A DNA stretch of 64,000 nt from a bacterium (lineage in GTDB: Bacteria > Actinomycetota > Acidimicrobiia > Acidimicrobiales > CATQHL01), in NCBI GenBank assembly GCA_026708055.1, contig JAPOVS010000075.1, positions 1 through 64,000 on the forward strand, given 5' to 3'. Shown piece by piece: positions 23,991 to 40,503 of the stretch (position 1 is its first letter; each line of letters opens with the position of its first letter). Both the position numbers and the translations under genes were made by a program. The notes below the pieces were generated by a model. The model saw nothing but the letters and a program-made list of their open reading frames with translations, had not been told where the DNA came from and did not search any database.

Positions 23991-24232
23991 CGACTGAGAA
24001 TCGAACGGGTTCCAGGCGGGTGGTCGATCCATCGCACTCCTCCCGGCCGTCCCGGCACCGGTGAGCGACGAAACGACACTGTCATCCGGCCGTCGCCGGC
24101 CACCGACTGGCACCGTCGGGGCGTCGCCGGTTACGCCGATCCACTGACCTCGGCACCGTCAGAGATCGAGGACGGTCCGGCGACACAGTGAACGCCTGAC
24201 CGCGATCGGTCGGTGATTCGAGGCCGTTGGTT

Positions 24233-24262
24233 CGTCATACGATATATAGTCTTCGTATGACG
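24233..24262 (+). promoter_or_regulatory. Leaderless promoter and operator of the RHH-MazF module
   Basis: A perfect 9-base inverted repeat, CGTCATACG at 24233-24241 and CGTATGACG at 24254-24262, flanks TATAGT (24245-24250). That -10 box lies six bases before ATG 24257. The repeat overlaps both promoter and start codon, as expected for a site bound by the ribbon-helix-helix antitoxin for autorepression. Confidence 0.7.
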
Positions 24263-24511
24263 CTAATGCTCAGTTTCCGGACCGACGAGGAGCAGGTCGC
24301 CGGGGCCACCCGCTGGGCGGCAACCCTCGGCATCGACCGGTCAGAGCTCCTGCGTGAGGCACTCCGTCGGCACCTCCAGCAACTGGAGGCGGACCAGGAC
24401 GTTCTGATCTACGAGGAGACGCCCTTGACGGAGGACGAGTTGGCCCTCGAAGAGATCGCCTACTGGCACCCGAACGAAGACTGGAGCGACTGGGCCGATG
24501 CAACGGGGTGA
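24257..24511 (+). CDS. Ribbon-helix-helix antitoxin of a MazEF-type module
   Basis: An 84-residue protein. The N-terminal half (MLSFRTDEEQVAGATRWAATL then IDRSELLREALRRHL) is a typical ribbon-helix-helix DNA-binding fold. The acidic C-terminal tail (YEETPLTEDELALEEIAYWH) would wrap the toxin. The ATG lies six bases after a -10 box and inside the operator repeat, so the transcript is probably leaderless. It overlaps the toxin gene by 14 bases, securing coupled expression. The longer frame upstream to 24227 is discounted because it crosses the promoter. Confidence 0.85.
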   Translation: MTLMLSFRTDEEQVAGATRWAATLGIDRSELLREALRRHLQQLEADQDVLIYEETPLTEDELALEEIAYWHPNEDWSDWADATG

Positions 24512-24806
24512 GATTTGGTTCGCCCGCACACCCGGCGGAGATCGGCCCGTTCTGGTGCTCACCCGTGACCCAGTCGCCGACCGGATCGGCGCGGTGGTAT
24601 CCGCCGCTCTGACGCGCACGCAGCGGGGAACCGCCGCCGAGTTGACGCTGACGACACGCCGCGACGGCGTGCCGCGGGACTGTGTCGTCAACTTCGACAC
24701 CATCTACACGATCCGACGAGATCACTTTCGCCGCCGTGTCACGACACTCTCGCCGGGACGCATGGCCGATGCTTGCCGGGCACTCATGGCAGCCACCGGC
24801 TGCTGA
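24498..24806 (+). CDS. mazF: MazF/PemK-family endoribonuclease toxin
   Basis: A 102-residue toxin beginning MQRGEIWFARTPGGDRPVLVLTRD, the N-terminal signature of MazF/PemK (RGEIW, then RPVLV). The family cuts mRNA at short specific sequences. Conserved features include the TRTQRGTAAELTL strand and the VNFDTIYTI segment, where MazF carries its Asn/Asp-rich dimer and substrate region. The length is normal and no lesion is seen, so this module looks functional, unlike several neighbours. It overlaps its antitoxin gene by 14 bases. Confidence 0.88.
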   Translation: MQRGEIWFARTPGGDRPVLVLTRDPVADRIGAVVSAALTRTQRGTAAELTLTTRRDGVPRDCVVNFDTIYTIRRDHFRRRVTTLSPGRMADACRALMAATGC

Positions 24807-28748: not shown

Positions 28749-28963
28749 ACGTCGGAACACGACGAGCCGTCCGCACGCCGCCCTGTCGTCGTGGCCGTTC
28801 CGCCCCGGCCCGACACCGAGGTCATCACCTGACCGGCGACGTTCCTCTCTCTCACCGCAGCGCGGCGGCGCCCTGGTGCCCCAAGGCGTCAAGGGGCCAG
28901 CCCGTAGCCGGTCCTCGACGCTGAGTGTGCCGAGTGGGTGGGTATGGCCCACAATGTGGCGTC

Positions 28964-31807
28964 ATGGCGGGTGATTCGTTCGACATCCTGACCGCCGAGC
29001 AGCGCGCCCGGGTGGAGATCGACGCGCAGCTCAAGGCGTGTGGCTGGACGGTGCAGGACTACCACCACGCCGCGGTGCGCGAGACCCAAGGGGTGGCGGT
29101 GCGGGAGATGCCCACCACCGCGGGGCGCGCCGACTACGTGCTGTTCGTGAACGGCCAAGCCGTCGGGGTGATCGAGGCGAAGAAGGCCGGCACGACGCTC
29201 ACCGGTGTCGAATGGCAGACCCGCAGGTACCAAACGAGCTTCCCGCACGAACTGCCGGCGTTCCTCGTCGACGAGGCGCTGCCGTTCGGCTACGAATCGA
29301 CCGCCCTCGACACCCGGTTCACCTGCGGACTGGACCCCGACCCGGCATCACGGCGGGTGTTCACGTTCCATCGGCCCGAGACCTTCGCCCGCTGGCAGCA
29401 AGAGCACGCCCGCCTCAAGGACCGGAAGCCCCCCGAGAACTGGGCCACGTTGCGGGGCGGGGTCCGGCGGCTACCCGAGTTGGACCCGGTCGGACTCTGG
29501 TCAGCGCAGGCGGAGGCGATCCGCAACCTCGAGGCATCGTTCTGGGCGAACCGGCCCCGGGCACTGATCCAGATGGCCACCGGATCAGGCAAGACGTTCA
29601 CGGCGGCCAACGCCGTCTACCGGCTCCTCCGCCACGCCGGCGCTGGGCGTGTCCTGTTCCTGGTGGATCGGGCCAACCTGGGCCGCCAGGCGGTCCGGGA
29701 GTTCCAGGGGTTCGAGACGCCCGACGACCGCCGGAAGTTCACAGAGCTCTACAACGTCCGCTTCCTCGAATCCTCCCGGCTCGACATGAGTGACGAGTCG
29801 GCCACGAAGGTGCACGTGTCCACCATCCAGCGCATCTACTCGATCCTGCGGGGCGAGGAACTCGACGAGGGCCTCGATGAGCGGTCCGGCTTCGACATGG
29901 CGCCCCGAGACCCGGTGGAGGTCGTCTACAACCCGGCCGTGCCGATCGAGTCCTACGACGTGATCATCATCGACGAGTGCCACCGGTCGATCTACGGGGT
30001 GTGGCGCCAGGTGCTCGAGTACTTCGACGCCTTCCTCGTCGGGCTGACGGCCACGCCCGGCAAGCAGACGCTCGGCTTCTTCGATCAGAACCTGGTCATG
30101 GAGTACGGCCACGAGCGCGCCGTGGCCGACCGGGTGAACGTGGACTTCGACGTGTTCCGCATCCGCACCGAGGTCAGCGAGGCGGGCGGCACGGTCGACG
30201 CAGGCATGGTCACGGAGTTCAGGGACCGGGAGACCCGCGAGCAGCGATTCGACCGCATGGACGACGACCTCGACTACGACGCCGCCGACCTCGACCGCAA
30301 GGTCGTCGCCCCCGACCAGATCCGGACCGTCATCGCCACGCTGCGCGACTCGATGCCGGCCATGTTCGGGGACCGCATCGTGGCCGAGAACGGCCAGCTG
30401 AAGCACATCCCCAAGACGCTGATCTTCGCCAAGGACGACAGCCACGCCGACGACATCGTCCGGATCGTTCGCGAGGAGTTCGGGCTACCCAACATGGGCG
30501 CCGTGAAGATCACCTACCGGTCGGGCGACAGCGGCCACAAGCCCGAGGACCTGCTCCAACAGTTCCGCACCTCCTACGACACCCGCATCGCCGTGACCGT
30601 CGACATGATCGCCACCGGCACCGACGTGAGGCCCATCGAATGCGTCGTGTTCATGCGCATGGTCCGCAGCCGCAACTTCTACGAGCAGATGAAGGGCCGG
30701 GGCGTGCGGACCATCGACGGCAGCGACCTGCGGATCGTCACGCCCGACGCCACCGCCAAGGATCACTTCGTGATCGTCGACGCCGTCGGCGTCACCGAAG
30801 CCGACCTCAACGACACGGTGCCGCTCGAACGCAACCACAACATCGGCTTCGACAAGCTGCTCAACCTGATCGGTCTCGGATCCACCGACGAAGAGGTGGT
30901 CTCCTCGGTGGCCTCGCGGCTCGCCCGCCTCGACAAGCGCATCACCCAACCCGACCGTCTGGAGGTCGAAGCGGTCGCCGGTGTGAGCCTCACCGGCCTG
31001 GCCGCCCAACTCGTCGACGCCCTCGACCCCGGCCGCCACCTCGACGTCGCCCGTGGCGACACCGGCTCAGCGGATCCCACCGCCGAGCAGATCGCAGCCG
31101 CTCGCGATCGGCTCGTCACCGAAGCGCTCCAGCCCATCGCCGGGAACCCGCAACTCCGGGAAAAGCTCATGGATATCCGCCGCAGTTACGAGCAGGTCAT
31201 CGATGCCGCCTCCGCCGACCGGCTCATCTCCGGGGAGTTCTCCGCCGACGCCGCCGACCGCGCACGGGGAGTGATCGCATCGTTCACCCAGTACATCGAG
31301 GACAACCGTGACGAGATCACAGCGCTGCAGGTCCTCTACAGCCAGCCTTACGGAGGTGGCCTCACCTTCGCCGACGTCCGGGAACTCGCCAACGCCATCG
31401 GGCGCCCGCCGCGCCGGTGGACCCCCAAGACGCTCTGGGCCGCCTACGAAACCCTCGACGCCTCCAAGGTCCGGGGGTCAGGCCACCGCGTCAACACCGA
31501 CCTCGTCAGCCTTGTCCGCTACGCCCTCGGCAACGCTGACGAACTCGTGGCGTACCCCGACCTCGTGAACGAGCGCTTCGACGCCTGGCTACAGGAGCAG
31601 GACAACACCGGCCGTGCCTTCACGGAGGATCAGCTCGCCTACCTCCACCTGATCAAGGACCACATCGCCGCCAGCCTCACCATCGCTCCCCGTGACCTCA
31701 TCGAGACCCCGTTCAGCGAACACGGAGGCCTCGGCCGAGCCCGCCAACTCTTCGGCCCCGATCTCAACCCGCTGCTGGACGAACTCACGCAAGCTCTCGC
31801 CGCATGA
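28964..31807 (+). CDS. hsdR: Type I restriction endonuclease subunit R
   Basis: The 947-residue motor and nuclease subunit of a type I restriction enzyme. The N-terminal nuclease has a PD-(D/E)XK core (D57, then E71-A-K73 in VIEAKKAG). The superfamily 2 motor follows: ATGSGKT at 205-211, DECH at 337-340, LTATPGK and a C-terminal helicase domain ending in QMKGRGVRTI. The tail would dock on the methylase. ATG 28964 fits the family's usual start; the 13 extra in-frame codons upstream are unlikely. It overlaps hsdS by 4 bases (ATGA). It cleaves foreign DNA after ATP-driven translocation when the target is unmethylated. Confidence 0.93.
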   Translation: MAGDSFDILTAEQRARVEIDAQLKACGWTVQDYHHAAVRETQGVAVREMPTTAGRADYVLFVNGQAVGVIEAKKAGTTLTGVEWQTRRYQTSFPHELPAFLVDEALPFGYESTALDTRFTCGLDPDPASRRVFTFHRPETFARWQQEHARLKDRKPPENWATLRGGVRRLPELDPVGLWSAQAEAIRNLEASFWANRPRALIQMATGSGKTFTAANAVYRLLRHAGAGRVLFLVDRANLGRQAVREFQGFETPDDRRKFTELYNVRFLESSRLDMSDESATKVHVSTIQRIYSILRGEELDEGLDERSGFDMAPRDPVEVVYNPAVPIESYDVIIIDECHRSIYGVWRQVLEYFDAFLVGLTATPGKQTLGFFDQNLVMEYGHERAVADRVNVDFDVFRIRTEVSEAGGTVDAGMVTEFRDRETREQRFDRMDDDLDYDAADLDRKVVAPDQIRTVIATLRDSMPAMFGDRIVAENGQLKHIPKTLIFAKDDSHADDIVRIVREEFGLPNMGAVKITYRSGDSGHKPEDLLQQFRTSYDTRIAVTVDMIATGTDVRPIECVVFMRMVRSRNFYEQMKGRGVRTIDGSDLRIVTPDATAKDHFVIVDAVGVTEADLNDTVPLERNHNIGFDKLLNLIGLGSTDEEVVSSVASRLARLDKRITQPDRLEVEAVAGVSLTGLAAQLVDALDPGRHLDVARGDTGSADPTAEQIAAARDRLVTEALQPIAGNPQLREKLMDIRRSYEQVIDAASADRLISGEFSADAADRARGVIASFTQYIEDNRDEITALQVLYSQPYGGGLTFADVRELANAIGRPPRRWTPKTLWAAYETLDASKVRGSGHRVNTDLVSLVRYALGNADELVAYPDLVNERFDAWLQEQDNTGRAFTEDQLAYLHLIKDHIAASLTIAPRDLIETPFSEHGGLGRARQLFGPDLNPLLDELTQALAA

Positions 31808-33141
31808 ACGACGAGATGCCACCTGGATGGGCATGGGCAACGTTCGGAGACGTATCCAACGTCGTTGGAGGCGCGACTCCGAAGACGAAAATCGCCGCGA
31901 ACTGGGGAGATGACGTCTCTTGGATAACCCCAGATGACCTCTCGCATCACAGTGGGATGTACATCGACAGGGGCCGCAGATCACTGACTCGCGAGGGCTA
32001 CGAATCGTGTTCTGCGCAACTGATGCCAGCCGGATCCGTCCTTTTCACCTCTCGCGCCCCGATTGGATATGTCGCGATCTCGTCCGGCCCGGTGTGCACA
32101 AATCAGGGTTTCAAGAGCTTTGTACCACAGAGCGGCCTGAGAAGTGAATACCTGTACTGGTACCTACGCTTTGCTACCCCGAGAATTCGAGCGCTGGGGA
32201 GCGGAACGACGTTCAAGGAGATCTCAAAGGCTGTGGCCGCCTCAATATGGCTACCTGTCCCGCCCAATGCGGAACAGAAGCGGATCGTCGCCGCCATCGA
32301 GGAGCACTTCTCTCGCCTTGACTTCGCGGAAACCGCTCTCGAGGTCACCCGATCCAAGTTGCAGGCGCTGCGGCGATCAGTGCTTGCCGCCGCCTTCGCC
32401 GGCCGCCTCACAAACCCGCCCGCCGCCGCCGACACCGACCTTGGCCAGCTACCAGCAGGCTGGGAACAGGCAACAATCGGGGAAGTCTCTAACGTCGTGG
32501 GAGGTGCGACTCCAAAAACAACCGTCGCCGCGAATTGGGGAGACGGCATCTCCTGGATAACCCCAGACGACCTTTCGAGACACAACGGAATGTACATTGA
32601 GCGAGGCCGCAGATCGCTAACCCGCGAAGGCTACGAATCGTGCTCCGCACAACTGATGCCAGCCGGGTCCGTCCTCTTTTCGTCGCGGGCTCCAATCGGA
32701 TATGTCGCAATCTCCTCCGGCCCCGTATGCACAAATCAAGGCTTCAAGAGCTTTGTGCCCCAGACCGGCTTGATGAGCAAGTATCTGTACTGGTATCTGC
32801 GCTTTGCTACACCCGACATCCAGGCAATGGGTAGCGGCACTACCTTCAAGGAGATTTCCAAGAAGGTCGCTCTCTCGATACCGCTCATACTCCCGCCAAT
32901 AGACGAACAAGAACAGATTGTCATCGCTATCGAGGAGTTCTTCTCGCGCCTTGACGCTGCCGAAGTGGCTCTGGAGATCGTTTGGTCGAAACTGCAAGCC
33001 TTCCGGCGTGCTGTACTGGCTGAGGCGTTCGCGGGCAGGCTCGTCCCCCAGGATTCCGATGATGAACCGGCCGCAGCCCTGCTCGCGCGCATCGCCGCCG
33101 AGCGCCCAGTGCGCCCGACCAGCAGGAAGAGATCCATATGA
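31804..33141 (+). CDS. hsdS: Type I restriction specificity subunit S with duplicated recognition domains
   Basis: A 445-residue HsdS. Layout: recognition domain 1 (about 1-150), conserved helical spacer 1 (EQKRIVAAIEEHFSRLD through AFAGRL, 155-202), recognition domain 2 (about 216-362) and spacer 2 (EQEQIVIAIEEFFSRLD through AFAGRL). The recognition domains are nearly the same: residues 20-142 and 231-353 differ at only about 15 positions by my count. Since each domain reads one half-site and the two are inverted in the complex, the expected target is close to palindromic, such as a half-site, a spacer and its reverse complement. It is coupled to hsdR and hsdM by ATGA overlaps. Confidence 0.93.
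   Translation: MNDEMPPGWAWATFGDVSNVVGGATPKTKIAANWGDDVSWITPDDLSHHSGMYIDRGRRSLTREGYESCSAQLMPAGSVLFTSRAPIGYVAISSGPVCTNQGFKSFVPQSGLRSEYLYWYLRFATPRIRALGSGTTFKEISKAVAASIWLPVPPNAEQKRIVAAIEEHFSRLDFAETALEVTRSKLQALRRSVLAAAFAGRLTNPPAAADTDLGQLPAGWEQATIGEVSNVVGGATPKTTVAANWGDGISWITPDDLSRHNGMYIERGRRSLTREGYESCSAQLMPAGSVLFSSRAPIGYVAISSGPVCTNQGFKSFVPQTGLMSKYLYWYLRFATPDIQAMGSGTTFKEISKKVALSIPLILPPIDEQEQIVIAIEEFFSRLDAAEVALEIVWSKLQAFRRAVLAEAFAGRLVPQDSDDEPAAALLARIAAERPVRPTSRKRSI
31861..32862 (+). repeat. Internal direct duplication of the hsdS recognition domain
   Basis: The segments 31861-32229 and 32494-32862 are in-frame copies 633 bases apart, encoding nearly identical recognition domains. They are diverged at many third positions yet strongly conserved in protein, so the duplication is not brand-new and selection has kept both halves alike. 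Confidence 0.85.
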
Positions 33142-34574
33142 CCAACGATTCCAAGGCTCTCGTTCAGAAGTTGTGGGACTTCTGCGACGTGCTCCGCGAC
33201 GACGGTCTGTCCTACGGCGACTATCTGGAGCAACTCACCTACCTGCTGTTTCTGAAGATGGCCGACGAGCAGTACGAGCTGTTGGGCGAGGACCGGGTGG
33301 TGCCCGAGGGGCTCGACTGGCCGTCACTGATGAGCCGGTCGGGCGCGGCTCTGGAGTCTCACTACAACGAGATCCTCGACGACCTCGGCGTCGGCGCCGA
33401 CATGCTGGGCGTCGTGTTCCGCAAGGCTCGCAACAGGATCCAGAACCCGGCCAAGCTGGAGTTGCTGATCAAGGACCTCATCGACGGACACGAGTGGCTG
33501 AGCCTCGACGCCGACCTGAAGGGCGCCGCGTACGAGGGGCTGATCGAGAAGACCGCCCGCGAGGGCGCCAGGGGTGCAGGCCAATACTTCACACCACGGC
33601 CGCTGATCTCGGCGATCGTCGACGTGATGCAGCCCGGCCCGGCGGATCGGATCTGCGACCCGGCGTGCGGCACCGGCGGGTTCTTCCTCGGCGCCTACCG
33701 GTCAGTGGTCGAGCGCCACTCCCCGCTGGACCCCGACCAGCGTGACCATCTGCGGTCGGGCGCGTTCACGGGCTGGGAGATCGCCGACCTGCCGGCGCGA
33801 CTGTGCGCGATGAACATGCTGCTGCACGGCATCGAGAGCCCCGGGTCCGACTCGCCGGTGCACGTCGACGACGCGCTGAGGGACGACCCCGGCATCCGCT
33901 TCGACATGGTGCTCACCAACCCCCCGTTCGGACGGTCGTCGTCGGACAGCTACGAACGGGAGAGCTTCTGGGCAACCACCAAGAACAAGCAGCTCAACTT
34001 CGTGCAGCACATCGTCGGCCTGCTCAAGGTCGGCGGCTCAGCAGCCGTGGTGGTACCCGACAACGTGCTGTTCGAGGCCGGCGCTGGCGAGACGATCCGC
34101 CGCCGGCTCCTGGGCGACTGCGACGTGCACACGCTGCTGCGCCTGCCGACGGGGATCTTCTACGCCCAAGGCGTCAAGGCCAACGTGCTGTTCTTCGAGC
34201 GCCGAGAGGGCGCCGAGCACCCCTGGACCCGCGACTTGTGGGTGTACGACCTGCGAACCAACAGGCGCTTCACCCTCAAACAGAACCCGATCACCCGAGC
34301 CGACCTCGATGACTTCGTCAACTGCTACCAACCCGGCAACCGCCACCGGCGAGTCGAGTCCGAGAGGTTCAAGAAATACACCTACGACGAACTGATCCAG
34401 CGCGACAAGGTGAGCCTCGACGTCTTCTGGCTCCGCGACGACAGCCTCGAAGACACCGAGAACCTGCCGGCCCCCGGAATCCTCGCCGCCGAAATCGTCG
34501 AAGACCTGCAAGCCGCCCTCGAAGAACTCCAAGCACTCGCCGAGAGCCTCAACGGCGGACAAAAGACATCATGA
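33138..34574 (+). CDS. hsdM: Type I restriction modification subunit M (N6-adenine methyltransferase)
   Basis: A 478-residue HsdM with an N-terminal helical domain (LWDFCDVLRDDGLSYGDYLE), the SAM site DPACGTGGFFLGAY, and the catalytic NPPFG of N6-adenine methylases in VLTNPPFGRSSS. The GQYFTPRPLI segment before the SAM site is diagnostic. The last 70 residues form a helix for HsdS contact. It starts within the hsdS stop (ATGA at 33138-33141). The order R-S-M is less usual than R-M-S or M-S-R. No lesion is seen, so the system appears complete. Confidence 0.93.
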   Translation: MTNDSKALVQKLWDFCDVLRDDGLSYGDYLEQLTYLLFLKMADEQYELLGEDRVVPEGLDWPSLMSRSGAALESHYNEILDDLGVGADMLGVVFRKARNRIQNPAKLELLIKDLIDGHEWLSLDADLKGAAYEGLIEKTAREGARGAGQYFTPRPLISAIVDVMQPGPADRICDPACGTGGFFLGAYRSVVERHSPLDPDQRDHLRSGAFTGWEIADLPARLCAMNMLLHGIESPGSDSPVHVDDALRDDPGIRFDMVLTNPPFGRSSSDSYERESFWATTKNKQLNFVQHIVGLLKVGGSAAVVVPDNVLFEAGAGETIRRRLLGDCDVHTLLRLPTGIFYAQGVKANVLFFERREGAEHPWTRDLWVYDLRTNRRFTLKQNPITRADLDDFVNCYQPGNRHRRVESERFKKYTYDELIQRDKVSLDVFWLRDDSLEDTENLPAPGILAAEIVEDLQAALEELQALAESLNGGQKTS

Positions 34575-34744
34575 CGGTCTCGTCGTGCCAGCTACTGGCC
34601 TGGGTGTTGCCATTTTGAAGCCGTGACTTCACCCGGCCAGTCTTCTGGTAACTCAAGGATCTCGCCAAGGCTCATCCCCTTCTTGATCGGAGTTGAGCAG
34701 GCTGGCGCTGTCGCGGCGCGCGACCGGTATGCGTGAGCAGTGGA

Positions 34745-34761
34745 TATGCTGGCATATATGC
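34745..34761 (+). promoter_or_regulatory. Leaderless promoter and operator of the VapBC module
   Basis: TATGCT (34745-34750) lies seven bases before ATG 34758, fitting a leaderless start. The perfect 10-base palindrome GCATATATGC (34752-34761) covers the start codon and is a likely binding site for the antitoxin. Confidence 0.5.
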
Positions 34762-34979
34762 GGCGGACGACCGTGATGCTTCCCGACGATCTGGATCTGC
34801 GTCTGCGCCGCGAGGCGGCGCGCCGCAACATGACCATCTCCGAAGTCACCCGCGAGGCCATCGAGCAACATGTCGGCGGGCCGCCCCGCCGGTTGCGGGC
34901 CGCTGGAGCCGGTCGCAGCGGGCGCGACGACGTCTCCGAGCGCATCGAGGAGATCCTGGCCGCCGAGGTGACCCCATAG
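34758..34979 (+). CDS. Ribbon-helix-helix antitoxin (VapB-type)
   Basis: A 73-residue protein with a ribbon-helix-helix N-terminus (RRTTVMLPDDLDLRLRREAARR, then TISEVTREAIEQHV). The tail is Gly/Arg-rich and ends with an acidic helix (SERIEEILAAEV) that should contact the toxin. The start ATG 34758 follows a -10 box by seven bases, so the short upstream in-frame extension is not used. The TAG stop (34977-34979) overlaps the presumed ATA start of the PIN toxin. Confidence 0.8.
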   Translation: MRRTTVMLPDDLDLRLRREAARRNMTISEVTREAIEQHVGGPPRRLRAAGAGRSGRDDVSERIEEILAAEVTP

Positions 34980-35389
34980 CCGTCCTCGTCGACGCCGGCC
35001 CGCTGTACGCCTACGTCGACGCCGACGACCGCAACCACCGCGCCGCTCTGGAGCTACTGCGGAGCCATCCCGAGCCGCTGGTGGTGCCCACGCTGGTCAT
35101 AACCGAGGTGGCCTATCTGGTCGGCGCGCGGCTCGGCACCGGCGCCGAGGTCCGGTTCCTGGGAGATCTGGCATCCGATGACTTCATCGTCGAGCCCGTG
35201 GCGGACGATGACTGGCTGCGGATCGCCGAACTGGTCGCCCGCCACGGCGATCTGCCGCTCGGCACCGTGGACGGCTCGATCGTCGCCGCTGCCGAGCGCC
35301 TCGGGATCACGCAGGTGGCGACCTTCGACCGCCGCCACTTCACCGTCGTCCGCCCCGCCCACATCGACGCCCTGGAGATCCTCCCCTGA
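34976..35389 (+). CDS. vapC: PIN-domain VapC toxin with a non-canonical ATA start
   Basis: A 137-residue PIN ribonuclease. Acidic catalytic residues are present: Asp in VLVDAGPLYAYVD, Glu in VITEVAYL, Asp in GTVDGSIVAAAE and Asp in FDRRHF. VapC toxins cut tRNA or rRNA. The frame has no ATG, GTG or TTG near its natural N-terminus. The codon where VapC normally starts (MAVLVDAGPL) is ATA at 34976-34978, overlapping the antitoxin stop. Either ATA is used weakly or the start was lost and expression is impaired. The coding region otherwise shows no damage. Confidence 0.75.
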   Translation: MAVLVDAGPLYAYVDADDRNHRAALELLRSHPEPLVVPTLVITEVAYLVGARLGTGAEVRFLGDLASDDFIVEPVADDDWLRIAELVARHGDLPLGTVDGSIVAAAERLGITQVATFDRRHFTVVRPAHIDALEILP

Positions 35390-36865: not shown

Positions 36866-38635
36866 ATGAGGCCGCGGGTCGTCCGGCTGGACGATCCTGA
36901 AGCACTCGACGTCCCGGCCGTCGGGGCCAAGGCGGCCGGCCTGGCCCGGGCGCGCCGAACGGGACTGCCGGCCCTCGACGGTTTCGTCGTCACCCTGGCA
37001 GCCTCGGCCGAGCCGCTGCGGCTGGCCGCCGAGGAGTTGGCCCGGCGAGGCTCGGGCGCGGCCCGGATGGTGCTGCTGCGCAGCGAACTCGACGAGGCGC
37101 TGGCGGCCGAGATCGCCGAAGCTGCCGCCGAGCTGGCCGAACCGCTCATCGCCCGCTCCTCCAGTGCGCTCGAGGGCGAGGGAACCTGGGCGGGGGCGTT
37201 CGCCTCGCTGCCCGAACTGCGCCGGCACGAGGTGCCCAAGGCGCTGCGCAGCGTTTGGTCGGCGATGTTCACGCTGGAGGCGCTGGAGCGATTCGAGGCA
37301 GTCGGCATCGAGCCCGGCAGCGCCGGGATGGGCGTGCTGGTGCAGACCGAACTGGCGCCCGACTGCGGTGGCGCCGCGACCGTCGATGAGATCGGCGCCG
37401 TGAGCATCTCGGCGGTGAAAGGCTCGCCGCGCGACCTGTTGGCGGGCTGGGTGCCGGGCGTGCGGGCAACCGTGGGCCCCGACGGCAGCATCTCGGGCAG
37501 CGAGGCGCTGGAGTTGATCGGTGCCGCAACGCTGGGCGAGGTGGCGGCGCTGGCCCGCCAAGCCGACGCCGAACTGGACTGCAACCTCGTGGAGTGGGCC
37601 GTCACCGGCGGGGCCCCCGTGCTGCTGCAGGTGCAGCGAACCGTGTCGGCGGCTGCGAGCGAGAGCATGGTGCTGCCGGCCGCCCTCGGGCATCCCGAAG
37701 CACGGCGCCTGGCGCGGCTGGTCATGTCCTATCCGGGGGCGTTGGGCGAGGAGTTGGTATTGGGCTGGGCGGCGGCTCGGGTTTCTGCTGACCGGGCCGG
37801 GGGTGGTGGTTTGTCTATTGGTACACGTCCGGCGGGGGATGGGCCGATCGGGGACACCCCCGGCCCTACCCGTTCTCCTGGTCCGGGCGCCGCTGGCCAG
37901 CCCTTTGGTGGGGAGGGGCTGGGGGGCTTGTTGGTTCGGGCTCGGTTGGTCTCTGCTGAGTTGACTGCTTCGGCTTGGGGGCGGCCCGTTGAGGAGGCTT
38001 CGGCTTTGGCCCGGTCGGTTTTGCGGCGGTTGCGGGGGGATCGGCCCAATGAGTCGATCGAGGCTCTGGGGGGGCTGGCGGCGTCTGATCCGGTTGGGGC
38101 CGCGGAGGTGTTGGGGATCATCGAGCGGCTCGGCGATGCCCTGGGCGATCCGCATGGGGTTTGGTATCACTCGGCGGATGAGCTGGCCGAGATCCTCGGC
38201 GGCACCGCCTCGCTGGAGCGGGGGCGCGTGGGGCGGGACCGCTGGGAGCCGTTCCTGGCCGGGGTGGCGGCGCTCGGCGGCGAGGCGCGCAGCGGGATCG
38301 GCGCCTCGGGCGGTGTCGGCGCGGGACGGCTCGTCTGGGTGTCGAGCCCCACGTCGGTGGACCACGTGCGACCCCGGGACGTGATCGTGGTGCAGTACCC
38401 GCTTCCCAACTTCGCTCCCCTGCTTTGGGACGCCGCCGGTCTCGTCGCCCTGGGTGGCGCTCCCTCGGCGCACCTCATGGAGGTGGCCCGATCACTCACC
38501 GTGCCGGCCGTCGTGAGTTGCCCCGTCGACGACCTGTTCGGTACCGGAGCGTCGGGTCGCAGGGGACCGGACACCCCGCTCCACCTCGGCACCGTCGACG
38601 GCGACGAGGGCCGGGTGGCGGTCCTGGAGTTGTGA
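36866..38635 (+). CDS. PEP/pyruvate-binding-type phosphotransferase-like protein
   Basis: A 589-residue protein. The N-terminal half resembles the ATP-grasp PEP/pyruvate-binding domain of pyruvate phosphate dikinases (VGAKAAGLARARRTGLPALDGFVV, LIARSSSALEGEG). The C-terminus resembles the PEP-utilising swivel domain (LVALGGAPSAHLMEVARSLTVPAVV), including the Gly-Gly-x-x-Ser-x-His region of the phosphohistidine. A Gly/Pro-rich insert near residues 310-350 (GTRPAGDGPIGDTPGPTRSP) and the following 80 codons use T-rich third positions unlike the rest. The catalytic substrate is unknown. It overlaps the next gene by one base (TGATG). Confidence 0.75.
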   Translation: MRPRVVRLDDPEALDVPAVGAKAAGLARARRTGLPALDGFVVTLAASAEPLRLAAEELARRGSGAARMVLLRSELDEALAAEIAEAAAELAEPLIARSSSALEGEGTWAGAFASLPELRRHEVPKALRSVWSAMFTLEALERFEAVGIEPGSAGMGVLVQTELAPDCGGAATVDEIGAVSISAVKGSPRDLLAGWVPGVRATVGPDGSISGSEALELIGAATLGEVAALARQADAELDCNLVEWAVTGGAPVLLQVQRTVSAAASESMVLPAALGHPEARRLARLVMSYPGALGEELVLGWAAARVSADRAGGGGLSIGTRPAGDGPIGDTPGPTRSPGPGAAGQPFGGEGLGGLLVRARLVSAELTASAWGRPVEEASALARSVLRRLRGDRPNESIEALGGLAASDPVGAAEVLGIIERLGDALGDPHGVWYHSADELAEILGGTASLERGRVGRDRWEPFLAGVAALGGEARSGIGASGGVGAGRLVWVSSPTSVDHVRPRDVIVVQYPLPNFAPLLWDAAGLVALGGAPSAHLMEVARSLTVPAVVSCPVDDLFGTGASGRRGPDTPLHLGTVDGDEGRVAVLEL

Positions 38636-40503
38636 TGGGCCCGGGCGACGCCGACCGGCGCCGGGTCGGGGTGATCGGCGTGGGGGTCATGGGCGGCGCC
38701 ATGTCGGGGCATCTGGTCGACGCCGGGTTCGAAGTGTGCGGCTACGACGTCGATCCGGCGAAGGTCGCCGCCTCCGCCGCGACGCCGGTCGGCTCGGTGG
38801 CCGAGGTGGCCGCCCGCAGCAACGTCGTGCTGCTCTCGCTGCCATCGGTGAGCGCTCTGGAGGGCGTGTCGGCGGAACTGGCCGACGCCGAGCCGGCCAG
38901 CCTCGTGGCCGTCGAGATGAGCACCCTGCCGCTGGAGGCGAAGCAGCAGGCCCACGACCGCCTCGCCGCGGTGGGCTGCGACCTGCTGGATGCGCCGGTC
39001 AGCGGCACCGGGCTGCAGGCCGCCGACGCCACGCTCGTCGTCTACTCCAGCGGCAGTCGCGCCGGCTTCGAGCGGGCCGCTCCGCTGTTCGACGTCATCG
39101 GCCGCCGCACGTACGACCTCGGCACCTTCAGCAACGGCACCCGCATGAAGTTCGTCGCCAACCTGCTCGTCGCCGTGCACACGCTCGCCGCCGCCGAGGC
39201 GCACGCCCTCGGTGAGGCCGCCGGGCTGGACCCGGCGCTCACCCAGGACGCGGTCTCGAACGGCACGGGAACCTCGTCCATGTTCGACATCCGGGGCCCG
39301 ATGATGGTGGCCGACAGCTTCGACCCCCCGTCGGCGCGGTTGGCGCTCATCCACAAGGACGCCGGCATCATCGCCGCCTACGCCCGGGCGGTCGGCACGG
39401 AGACGCCGCTGCTGGACGCCGCCGTCCCGATGTACGAGCGGGGCCTCGCCGCCGGCCTCGGTGACCTCGACGCCGCCGCCCTGCGTCGCCTCTTCGATTC
39501 CCCGCCGCCGGCCGATTCCCCCACAGGCGAGGATCCCCGGCCCCAGCCGAGGAACCTCGAGGTGCGCCGCGGCGATCGGCCGCGAGTCGGGGTGATCGGC
39601 GTGGGCGTGATGGGCGGTGCCATGGCCGCCAACCTGGTCGCCGCGGGGTTCGAAGTCTGCGGCTACGACGTCGAGTTGGCGAAGGTCGCCGCCTCCGCCG
39701 CCAGCGAGGTCGCCTCGGTGGCCGAGGCGGCTGCCCGCAGCGACATCGTGTTGCTCTCCCTGCCGTCGGCGGACGCCCTCGAGACCGTGTCGGCGGAACT
39801 GGCGGCCGCCGGACCGGAAGGTCTCTTGGCCGTCGAGATGAGCACGCTGCCGCTGGAGGTGAAACAGCGCGCCCACGACCTCCTCGCCGAAGCGGGTTGC
39901 GATCTTCTGGATGCGCCGGTCAGCGGCACCGGACTGCAGGCCGCCGACGCCACGCTCGTCGTGTACGGCAGCGGCAGCCGCGCCGGGCTCGAGGCGGCGT
40001 CGCCGATCTTCGACGTGATCGGGCGCCGCACCTACCACCTCGGGGCGTTCGGCAACGGCACGCGCATGAAGCTCGTCGCCAACCTCCTAGCGGCGGTGCA
40101 CACGCTGGCCGCCGCCGAGGCGCACGCCCTGGGGGCTGCCGCCGGGCTGGACCCCGCCGTGACCCAGGAGGTGATCTCCGCCGGCGTGGGCACCTCGGCC
40201 ACCTTCGACATCCGGGGCCCGATGATGGTCGCGAACAGCTACGAACCCCCGGCCGGACGGCTGGCGATCATCGACAAGGATGTCGGAATCATCGCCACCT
40301 TCGCCCGGGCGGTCGGCGTCGAGACACCGCTGCTCGACGCCACCCGGCCTTTCTACCGGCGGGGTACCGCCGGGGGCCTCAGCGACCTCGACGTCGCCGC
40401 CGTGCGCCGCCTGTTCGAATCTCGGCCGCCGGCCGGATCCCCCACAGGCGGGGCCGCGTCCACCGAGACCGCACCCATCAACACAGAAGGAGCAAAGCCA
40501 TGA
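38635..40503 (+). CDS. Tandem-fused 3-hydroxyisobutyrate dehydrogenase-family protein (two copies)
   Basis: A 622-residue fusion of two complete beta-hydroxyacid dehydrogenase units (about residues 9-297 and 317-603). Each has the Rossmann loop GVIGVGVMGGAM, the substrate-binding block DAPVSGTGLQAADATLVVY and the catalytic Lys in NGTRMK(F/L)VANLL. The joining linker (PPPADSPTGEDPRPQPRNLEV) is Pro-rich and similar to the C-terminal tail, so an in-frame tandem gene duplication with stop loss is likely. Members oxidise or reduce beta-hydroxyacids such as hydroxyisobutyrate or tartronate semialdehyde. It is coupled to its neighbours by TGATG and ATGA overlaps. Confidence 0.88.
   Translation: MGPGDADRRRVGVIGVGVMGGAMSGHLVDAGFEVCGYDVDPAKVAASAATPVGSVAEVAARSNVVLLSLPSVSALEGVSAELADAEPASLVAVEMSTLPLEAKQQAHDRLAAVGCDLLDAPVSGTGLQAADATLVVYSSGSRAGFERAAPLFDVIGRRTYDLGTFSNGTRMKFVANLLVAVHTLAAAEAHALGEAAGLDPALTQDAVSNGTGTSSMFDIRGPMMVADSFDPPSARLALIHKDAGIIAAYARAVGTETPLLDAAVPMYERGLAAGLGDLDAAALRRLFDSPPPADSPTGEDPRPQPRNLEVRRGDRPRVGVIGVGVMGGAMAANLVAAGFEVCGYDVELAKVAASAASEVASVAEAAARSDIVLLSLPSADALETVSAELAAAGPEGLLAVEMSTLPLEVKQRAHDLLAEAGCDLLDAPVSGTGLQAADATLVVYGSGSRAGLEAASPIFDVIGRRTYHLGAFGNGTRMKLVANLLAAVHTLAAAEAHALGAAAGLDPAVTQEVISAGVGTSATFDIRGPMMVANSYEPPAGRLAIIDKDVGIIATFARAVGVETPLLDATRPFYRRGTAGGLSDLDVAAVRRLFESRPPAGSPTGGAASTETAPINTEGAKP

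Follow-up and report, generated by a model that had tools for sequence, protein, structure and literature searches.

Organisation of the locus

The window, that is, the whole stretch of 64,000 nucleotides analysed here from a genome of the order Acidimicrobiales, carries hsdR, hsdS and hsdM in this order on the forward strand (table 1). The ATG of hsdS overlaps the stop codon of hsdR (ATGA) and the TGA of hsdS overlaps the ATG of hsdM; given these overlaps at both ends of hsdS, the three genes look like one overlapping Type I operon. HsdS contains two Methylase_S domains in one chain, with a 44-residue helix after each target recognition domain (TRD), and its best PDB sequence match is 1yf2 (5.9e-55). 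The catalytic motifs of the two linked subunits are intact, both in HsdR (Walker A GSGKT at 208, DECH at 338, TATP at 363, GRGVR at 579 and the nuclease motif EAKK at 72) and in HsdM (DPACGTGG at 174 and NPPF at 261).

Table 1. Features of the Type I locus (positions in the window; residues refer to HsdS)
Feature	Position	Strand	Description
hsdR	28961..31807	+	948 aa; alternative GTG start at 28925; Pfam HSDR_N, ResIII, Helicase_C, EcoEI_R_C
hsdS	31804..33141	+	445 aa; PF01420 in two stretches (5.3e-52); PADLOC Specificity_I
TRD1	31825..32253	+	residues 8-150; PF01420 match 31825-32325
CR1, 44-residue spacer helix	32266..32397	+	residues 155-198; typical slot-1 sequence EQKRIVAAIEEHFSRLD; AlphaFold2 secondary structure, slot-specific comparison
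TRD2	32458..32886	+	residues 219-361; PF01420 match 32452-32946
CR2, 44-residue spacer helix	32899..33030	+	residues 366-409; slot-1 type in its first part (QIVIAIEEFFSRLDAAE) and slot-2 type at its end; AlphaFold2, slot-specific comparison
C-terminal tail with short helix	33043..33138	+	residues 414-445; absent after the first half
hsdM	33138..34574	+	478 aa; Pfam N6_Mtase (1e-62) and HsdM_N; single N6-adenine methyltransferase subunit

The surroundings of the system include a toxin-antitoxin-like pair upstream (24227-24806; a CopG-type RHH protein and a PemK/MazF-like protein) and a PIN-domain protein, also toxin-antitoxin-like, directly downstream of hsdM (34733-35389). A second protein with an internal duplication is encoded at 38425-40503, where an ORF of 692 aa consists of two tandem 3-hydroxyisobutyrate-dehydrogenase-like units that are 72.4% identical over 319 columns.

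Internal repeat and predicted fold of HsdS

Residues 4-202 of HsdS align with residues 215-413 without a gap and with a constant offset of 211 residues, and over these 199 aa the two halves are 79.9% identical. The initial annotation had described two near-identical recognition domains at 31861-32862 (residues 20 to 353 of HsdS) with about 108 matches, and this description holds: 109 of the 123 residues are identical between positions 20-142 and 231-353. TRD1 and TRD2 are 85.3% identical to each other, and the part following the TRD is 68% identical. The symmetry of the protein is imperfect, because the C-terminal tail has no counterpart after the first half.

The tree places TRD1 and TRD2 as sisters (support 0.97), and each is the closest sampled relative of the other; the next relative, in the HsdS of locus L001, is 62% identical, and the second TRD of that protein is a different one. 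The TRD type of the window is found in slot 1 of 52 and in slot 2 of 26 other HsdS proteins, which come from distant species and are not alleles of one locus. Judged from these comparisons, the two TRDs can be assigned to one TRD type, although their 85% identity stays short of the within-type level of >92% in group A streptococci (GAS).

The AlphaFold2 model of HsdS (pLDDT 88.9, pTM 0.72) consists of two units with the same order of elements, again at an offset of 211, each with its 44-residue helix. The first Foldseek matches of the model are HsdS structures, with 5ybb as the best overall (TM 0.71/0.80). The TRD fold is common to the nearest structures, 1yf2 and TRD2 of EcoR124 (recognising RTCG), but the sequence identity to them is low; a literature search on the M. 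jannaschii methylome returned nothing useful for the bases of the half-site.

The targets of Type I systems are nearly always asymmetric. HsdS is rotationally pseudo-symmetric, and equal TRDs read inverted half-sites (PMC3874165); since the antiparallel helices invert the second TRD, a palindromic target would be expected for the window protein, and since there is one HsdM only, both half-sites would be expected to be methylated at adenine. The almost palindromic target proposed from the sequence is in this way backed, by analogy, by the pseudo-symmetry of HsdS and by the precedent of identical TRDs in Helicobacter pylori discussed below.

Age and constraint of the pair

The 199 aligned codons comprise 80 identical, 79 synonymous and 40 nonsynonymous pairs, and the nucleotide identity of the halves is 74%. 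By NG86, dN is 0.143 and dS 1.49 for the halves, and 0.098 and 1.40 for the TRD part only; these dS values are close to saturation and hence imprecise, and they are used for their order of magnitude alone. The dN/dS ratio between the copies is about 0.07-0.1, and 43 of 73 fourfold-degenerate sites differ. Synonymous differences are scattered over the entire repeat, and the longest run without a difference measures 17 nt; a recent conversion tract is therefore absent. Recent duplication and gene conversion were considered as sources of the likeness and were ruled out by the near saturation of synonymous sites and by the shortness of that run. The likeness of the TRDs is old and is kept by constraint at the protein level, not by recent copying or conversion, since the fourfold sites have diverged to this extent and dS is about 1.4-1.5 where dN is about 0.10-0.14.

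The 21 differences between the TRDs lie where the family as a whole varies (mean entropy 2.79 vs 1.64, p 1e-6). They include changes of charge, such as R127D and E115K, and the block of 54 residues from 56 to 109 contains a single difference, T82S. This pattern is the one expected from purifying selection acting on each copy; it is not in itself evidence of selection for symmetry. The proposal that the domains were kept similar by selection can therefore be retained for the sequence of each TRD, but not for selection in favour of symmetry as such. The GC3 of TRD1 and TRD2 is 0.64 and 0.66, compared with 0.89-0.91 in hsdM and hsdR, and the divergence of the pair may predate its arrival in the present genome.

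Survey of HsdS proteins with two TRDs

HsdS ORFs of at least 330 aa with an open frame were collected from order-wide and phylum-wide Methylase_S searches and from the surroundings of relatives of the window HsdM in the order, and the two halves of each of the resulting 150 distinct two-TRD proteins were compared. The half-versus-half score exceeds 600 in three of them, namely the window HsdS (826), a second HsdS from the same genome (contig G000:C23, 710) and the HsdS of G073 (854), whereas the best score among the 123 HsdS outside the window HsdM subfamily is 296. The likeness of the halves of the window HsdS is thus far above chance and above the usual pseudo-repeat similarity of HsdS, and near-identical TRDs in one HsdS are uncommon (3/150) in the one order and phylum surveyed. 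All three proteins accompany one HsdM subfamily (3/27 vs 0/123, Fisher p 0.005), an association that is indicative only, as p was computed post hoc and two of the three cases come from the same genome. Their TRDs are of three different types. None of the 75 HsdS taken from genome contigs, a sample biased towards the query, scores above 600, and a search of viral contigs and plasmids for close relatives of the window gave distant ones only (below 60%).

Related symmetric genes and probable route of origin

The second symmetric HsdS of the same genome (C23; L145, 5975-7327) has TRD parts that are 75% identical, with a dN of 0.16 and a dS of 2.3. The HsdS of G073 (L147, 4764-6035) contains a perfect internal direct repeat of 478 bp that spans both TRDs. 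Identity between the copies sets in within ELPTGW, directly past the start codon, and breaks off in the helix behind EEQFS, the next residues being RLDAAEA in one copy and ILDSLFA in the other. The G073 gene is therefore best read as a recent case of a slot-1 TRD copied into slot 2, with the junction lying in the spacer helix, and it illustrates a route by which genes of this kind can come about.

The spacer helices are slot-specific in the HsdM subfamily, and the controls were assigned correctly (17/17 and 15/15). CR2 of G073 begins with slot-1 sequence and continues with slot-2 sequence, whereas CR2 of C23 is clearly of slot-2 type (48 vs 90). CR2 of the window is ambiguous, with a median score of 89 against CR1s and 84 against CR2s, although ordinary CR2s are clearly assigned to CR2. 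The flanks resembling LP.GW and IVAAIEE are only partly shared among the three symmetric genes, and the helix motif is specific to slot 1 in ordinary members. The simplest reading of all three genes, as far as their sequences go, is that TRD1 was copied into slot 2 with junctions at differing points. The origin by duplication that the initial annotation had assumed for the window gene agrees with its sister TRDs, with the partly slot-1 type of the helix after TRD2 and with the fresh 478-bp copy in a relative. A broader view, in which palindromic HsdS with the same TRD twice would be a recurrent state in this HsdM subfamily, long held by selection, would count the three symmetric genes, which differ in TRD type and in divergence age and two of which lie in one genome, as independent cases, and we regard it as improbable.

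Several observations concern the neighbourhoods of these relatives. The HsdR of C23 (L145, 3870-5978) has 702 aa, about 245 aa fewer than the window HsdR; since Walker A, DECH and TATP are absent from it, the C23 system is probably modification-only. Between hsdS and hsdM of C23 (7660-8586) lies an ORF of 308 aa in which a unit of about 70 aa is repeated nearly perfectly (DNIRRARSYRKEAALRRPGPNRDALNRLADALEATDD...), and a Pfam search of this ORF gave no match. An HsdM that is 98% identical to that of the window (96% at the DNA level) is encoded at G200:C44:1-1407 (L148), in a genome from another family of the order, which suggests recent horizontal transfer; an HsdS beside it was sought, but the contig starts at hsdM and no other contig matched.

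Comparison with known systems

Natural HsdS proteins in which one TRD type fills both positions have been described. In group A streptococci TRD_F occupies both positions (F/F) in four emm types, and these proteins resemble the window HsdS in being natural, full-length, two-TRD subunits of a Type I system with a single hsdS (PMC8597746). They differ from it in age: identity within types is >92% and generally 99-100% in GAS, as befits recent allele shuffling (PMC8597746), whereas the window TRDs are 85% identical with nearly saturated synonymous sites. The JHP1422/JHP1423 system of H. pylori (M.Hpy99XV) also carries the same TRD twice: the identical TRD2 and TRD3 of JHP1422 methylate the palindromic AAGN5CTT in a two-TRD construct, and the authors of that work state that palindromic sites arising from S subunits with identical TRDs were commonly accepted (PMC3936762). 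Unlike the window HsdS, the native H. pylori protein has three TRDs, its copies are perfect, and it has an additional asymmetric target (PMC3936762). The S subunit of BstXI is similar to the window protein in that its two TRDs are alike but not identical, both read CCA, and the target is symmetric overall (PMC3874165).

Palindromic Type I targets read by two equal TRDs are also known from NgoAV, EcoR124I delta50, truncations of EcoDXXI and an engineered half-HsdS of S. aureus CC398 (PMC3874165, PMC6158711). The symmetry of these systems comes from two half-length S chains, whereas the window protein joins both copies within a single chain of 445 aa, so that it is not a single-TRD subunit of the NgoAV kind. 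In domain movement (DoMo), flanking repeats allow TRDs to pass between slots 1 and 2, and in one allele both slots hold the same TRD (PMC3077401). This allele is part of a Type IIG system of H. pylori (PMC3077401), while the conserved sequences flanking the window TRDs are mostly slot-specific helices; among relatives, a single TRD type occurs in both slots here too, as expected under such movement, across distant species. The same-TRD arrangement is therefore already known in nature, and the unusual point of the window gene is the age of the pair. The rarity implied by the initial annotation is borne out within our survey, but the literature already provides examples in GAS, H. pylori and BstXI.

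Proposed origin and alternatives

What, then, is the most plausible account of this gene? We consider it very likely that the locus encodes an intact Type I system in which HsdS acquired TRDs of the same type by an ancient copy from slot 1 to slot 2, with a palindromic bipartite target as the predicted outcome. The TRD and most of the following helix would have been copied long ago, and in the folded protein two antiparallel helices of 44 residues would keep the TRDs inverted relative to each other. On either strand of a palindromic bipartite target X-N(n)-X', M2S would thus modify the same half-site at its adenine, and DNA without that methylation would be cut by R2M2S. Purifying selection has preserved both TRD sequences while synonymous sites became nearly saturated. 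Of this account, the sequence identity, the tree, the constraint, the operon, the conserved motifs and the predicted fold come directly from the analysis; that the two half-sites are equal, that copying ran from slot 1 to slot 2 and that the system is active are inferred.

The same palindromic target would result without duplication in the gene if separate recombinations with different donors had supplied slots 1 and 2 with TRDs of one type and one specificity. On the one hand, the foreign-like GC3 of both TRDs relative to hsdM and hsdR and the high synonymous divergence between the copies are compatible with this, and the GC3 of hsdS is consistently below that of the adjacent hsdM across the order (mean 0.62 vs 0.77; 21 loci), as expected if TRDs move horizontally. 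On the other hand, the two TRDs are far closer to each other than to any other sampled TRD (85% vs 62%), slot 2 holds helix sequence of slot-1 type, and direct copying is visible in G073. Separate capture is therefore less likely than duplication, and on the whole unlikely.

Another reading accepts the common type of the TRDs and assumes that the half-sites have come to differ by a base despite the 85% identity, making the target nearly but not exactly palindromic. TRD specificity depends on few loop residues (PMC9613975), and the 21 substitutions, some of which alter charge, could leave one half-site relaxed or differing by a base. Nevertheless, the differences lie at family-variable positions, the block 56-109 contains one conservative change, and 85% is far nearer to the same-type than to the different-type level in GAS, where different types typically share 15% or less (PMC8597746); we therefore hold such a shift to be quite unlikely. 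That the repeat is an assembly artefact or the gene decayed is hardly credible: the assembly, with 87 contigs, is a draft (completeness 96.4%, contamination 2.75%), but 26% of nucleotides differ between the halves, the reading frame is open with start and stop overlapping the neighbours, the motifs of HsdR and HsdM are intact, and dN/dS is low.

Significance

The ancient copy from slot 1 to slot 2 proposed for the window gene belongs to a natural series of HsdS proteins, which extends from the perfect 478-bp repeat to the pairs that are 85% and 75% identical. This series shows how TRD copying can yield palindromic specificities, and it suggests that such specificities can persist. HsdS proteins with the same TRD twice are also clean material for the decoding of TRDs, as they offer one domain and one half-site in two reads.
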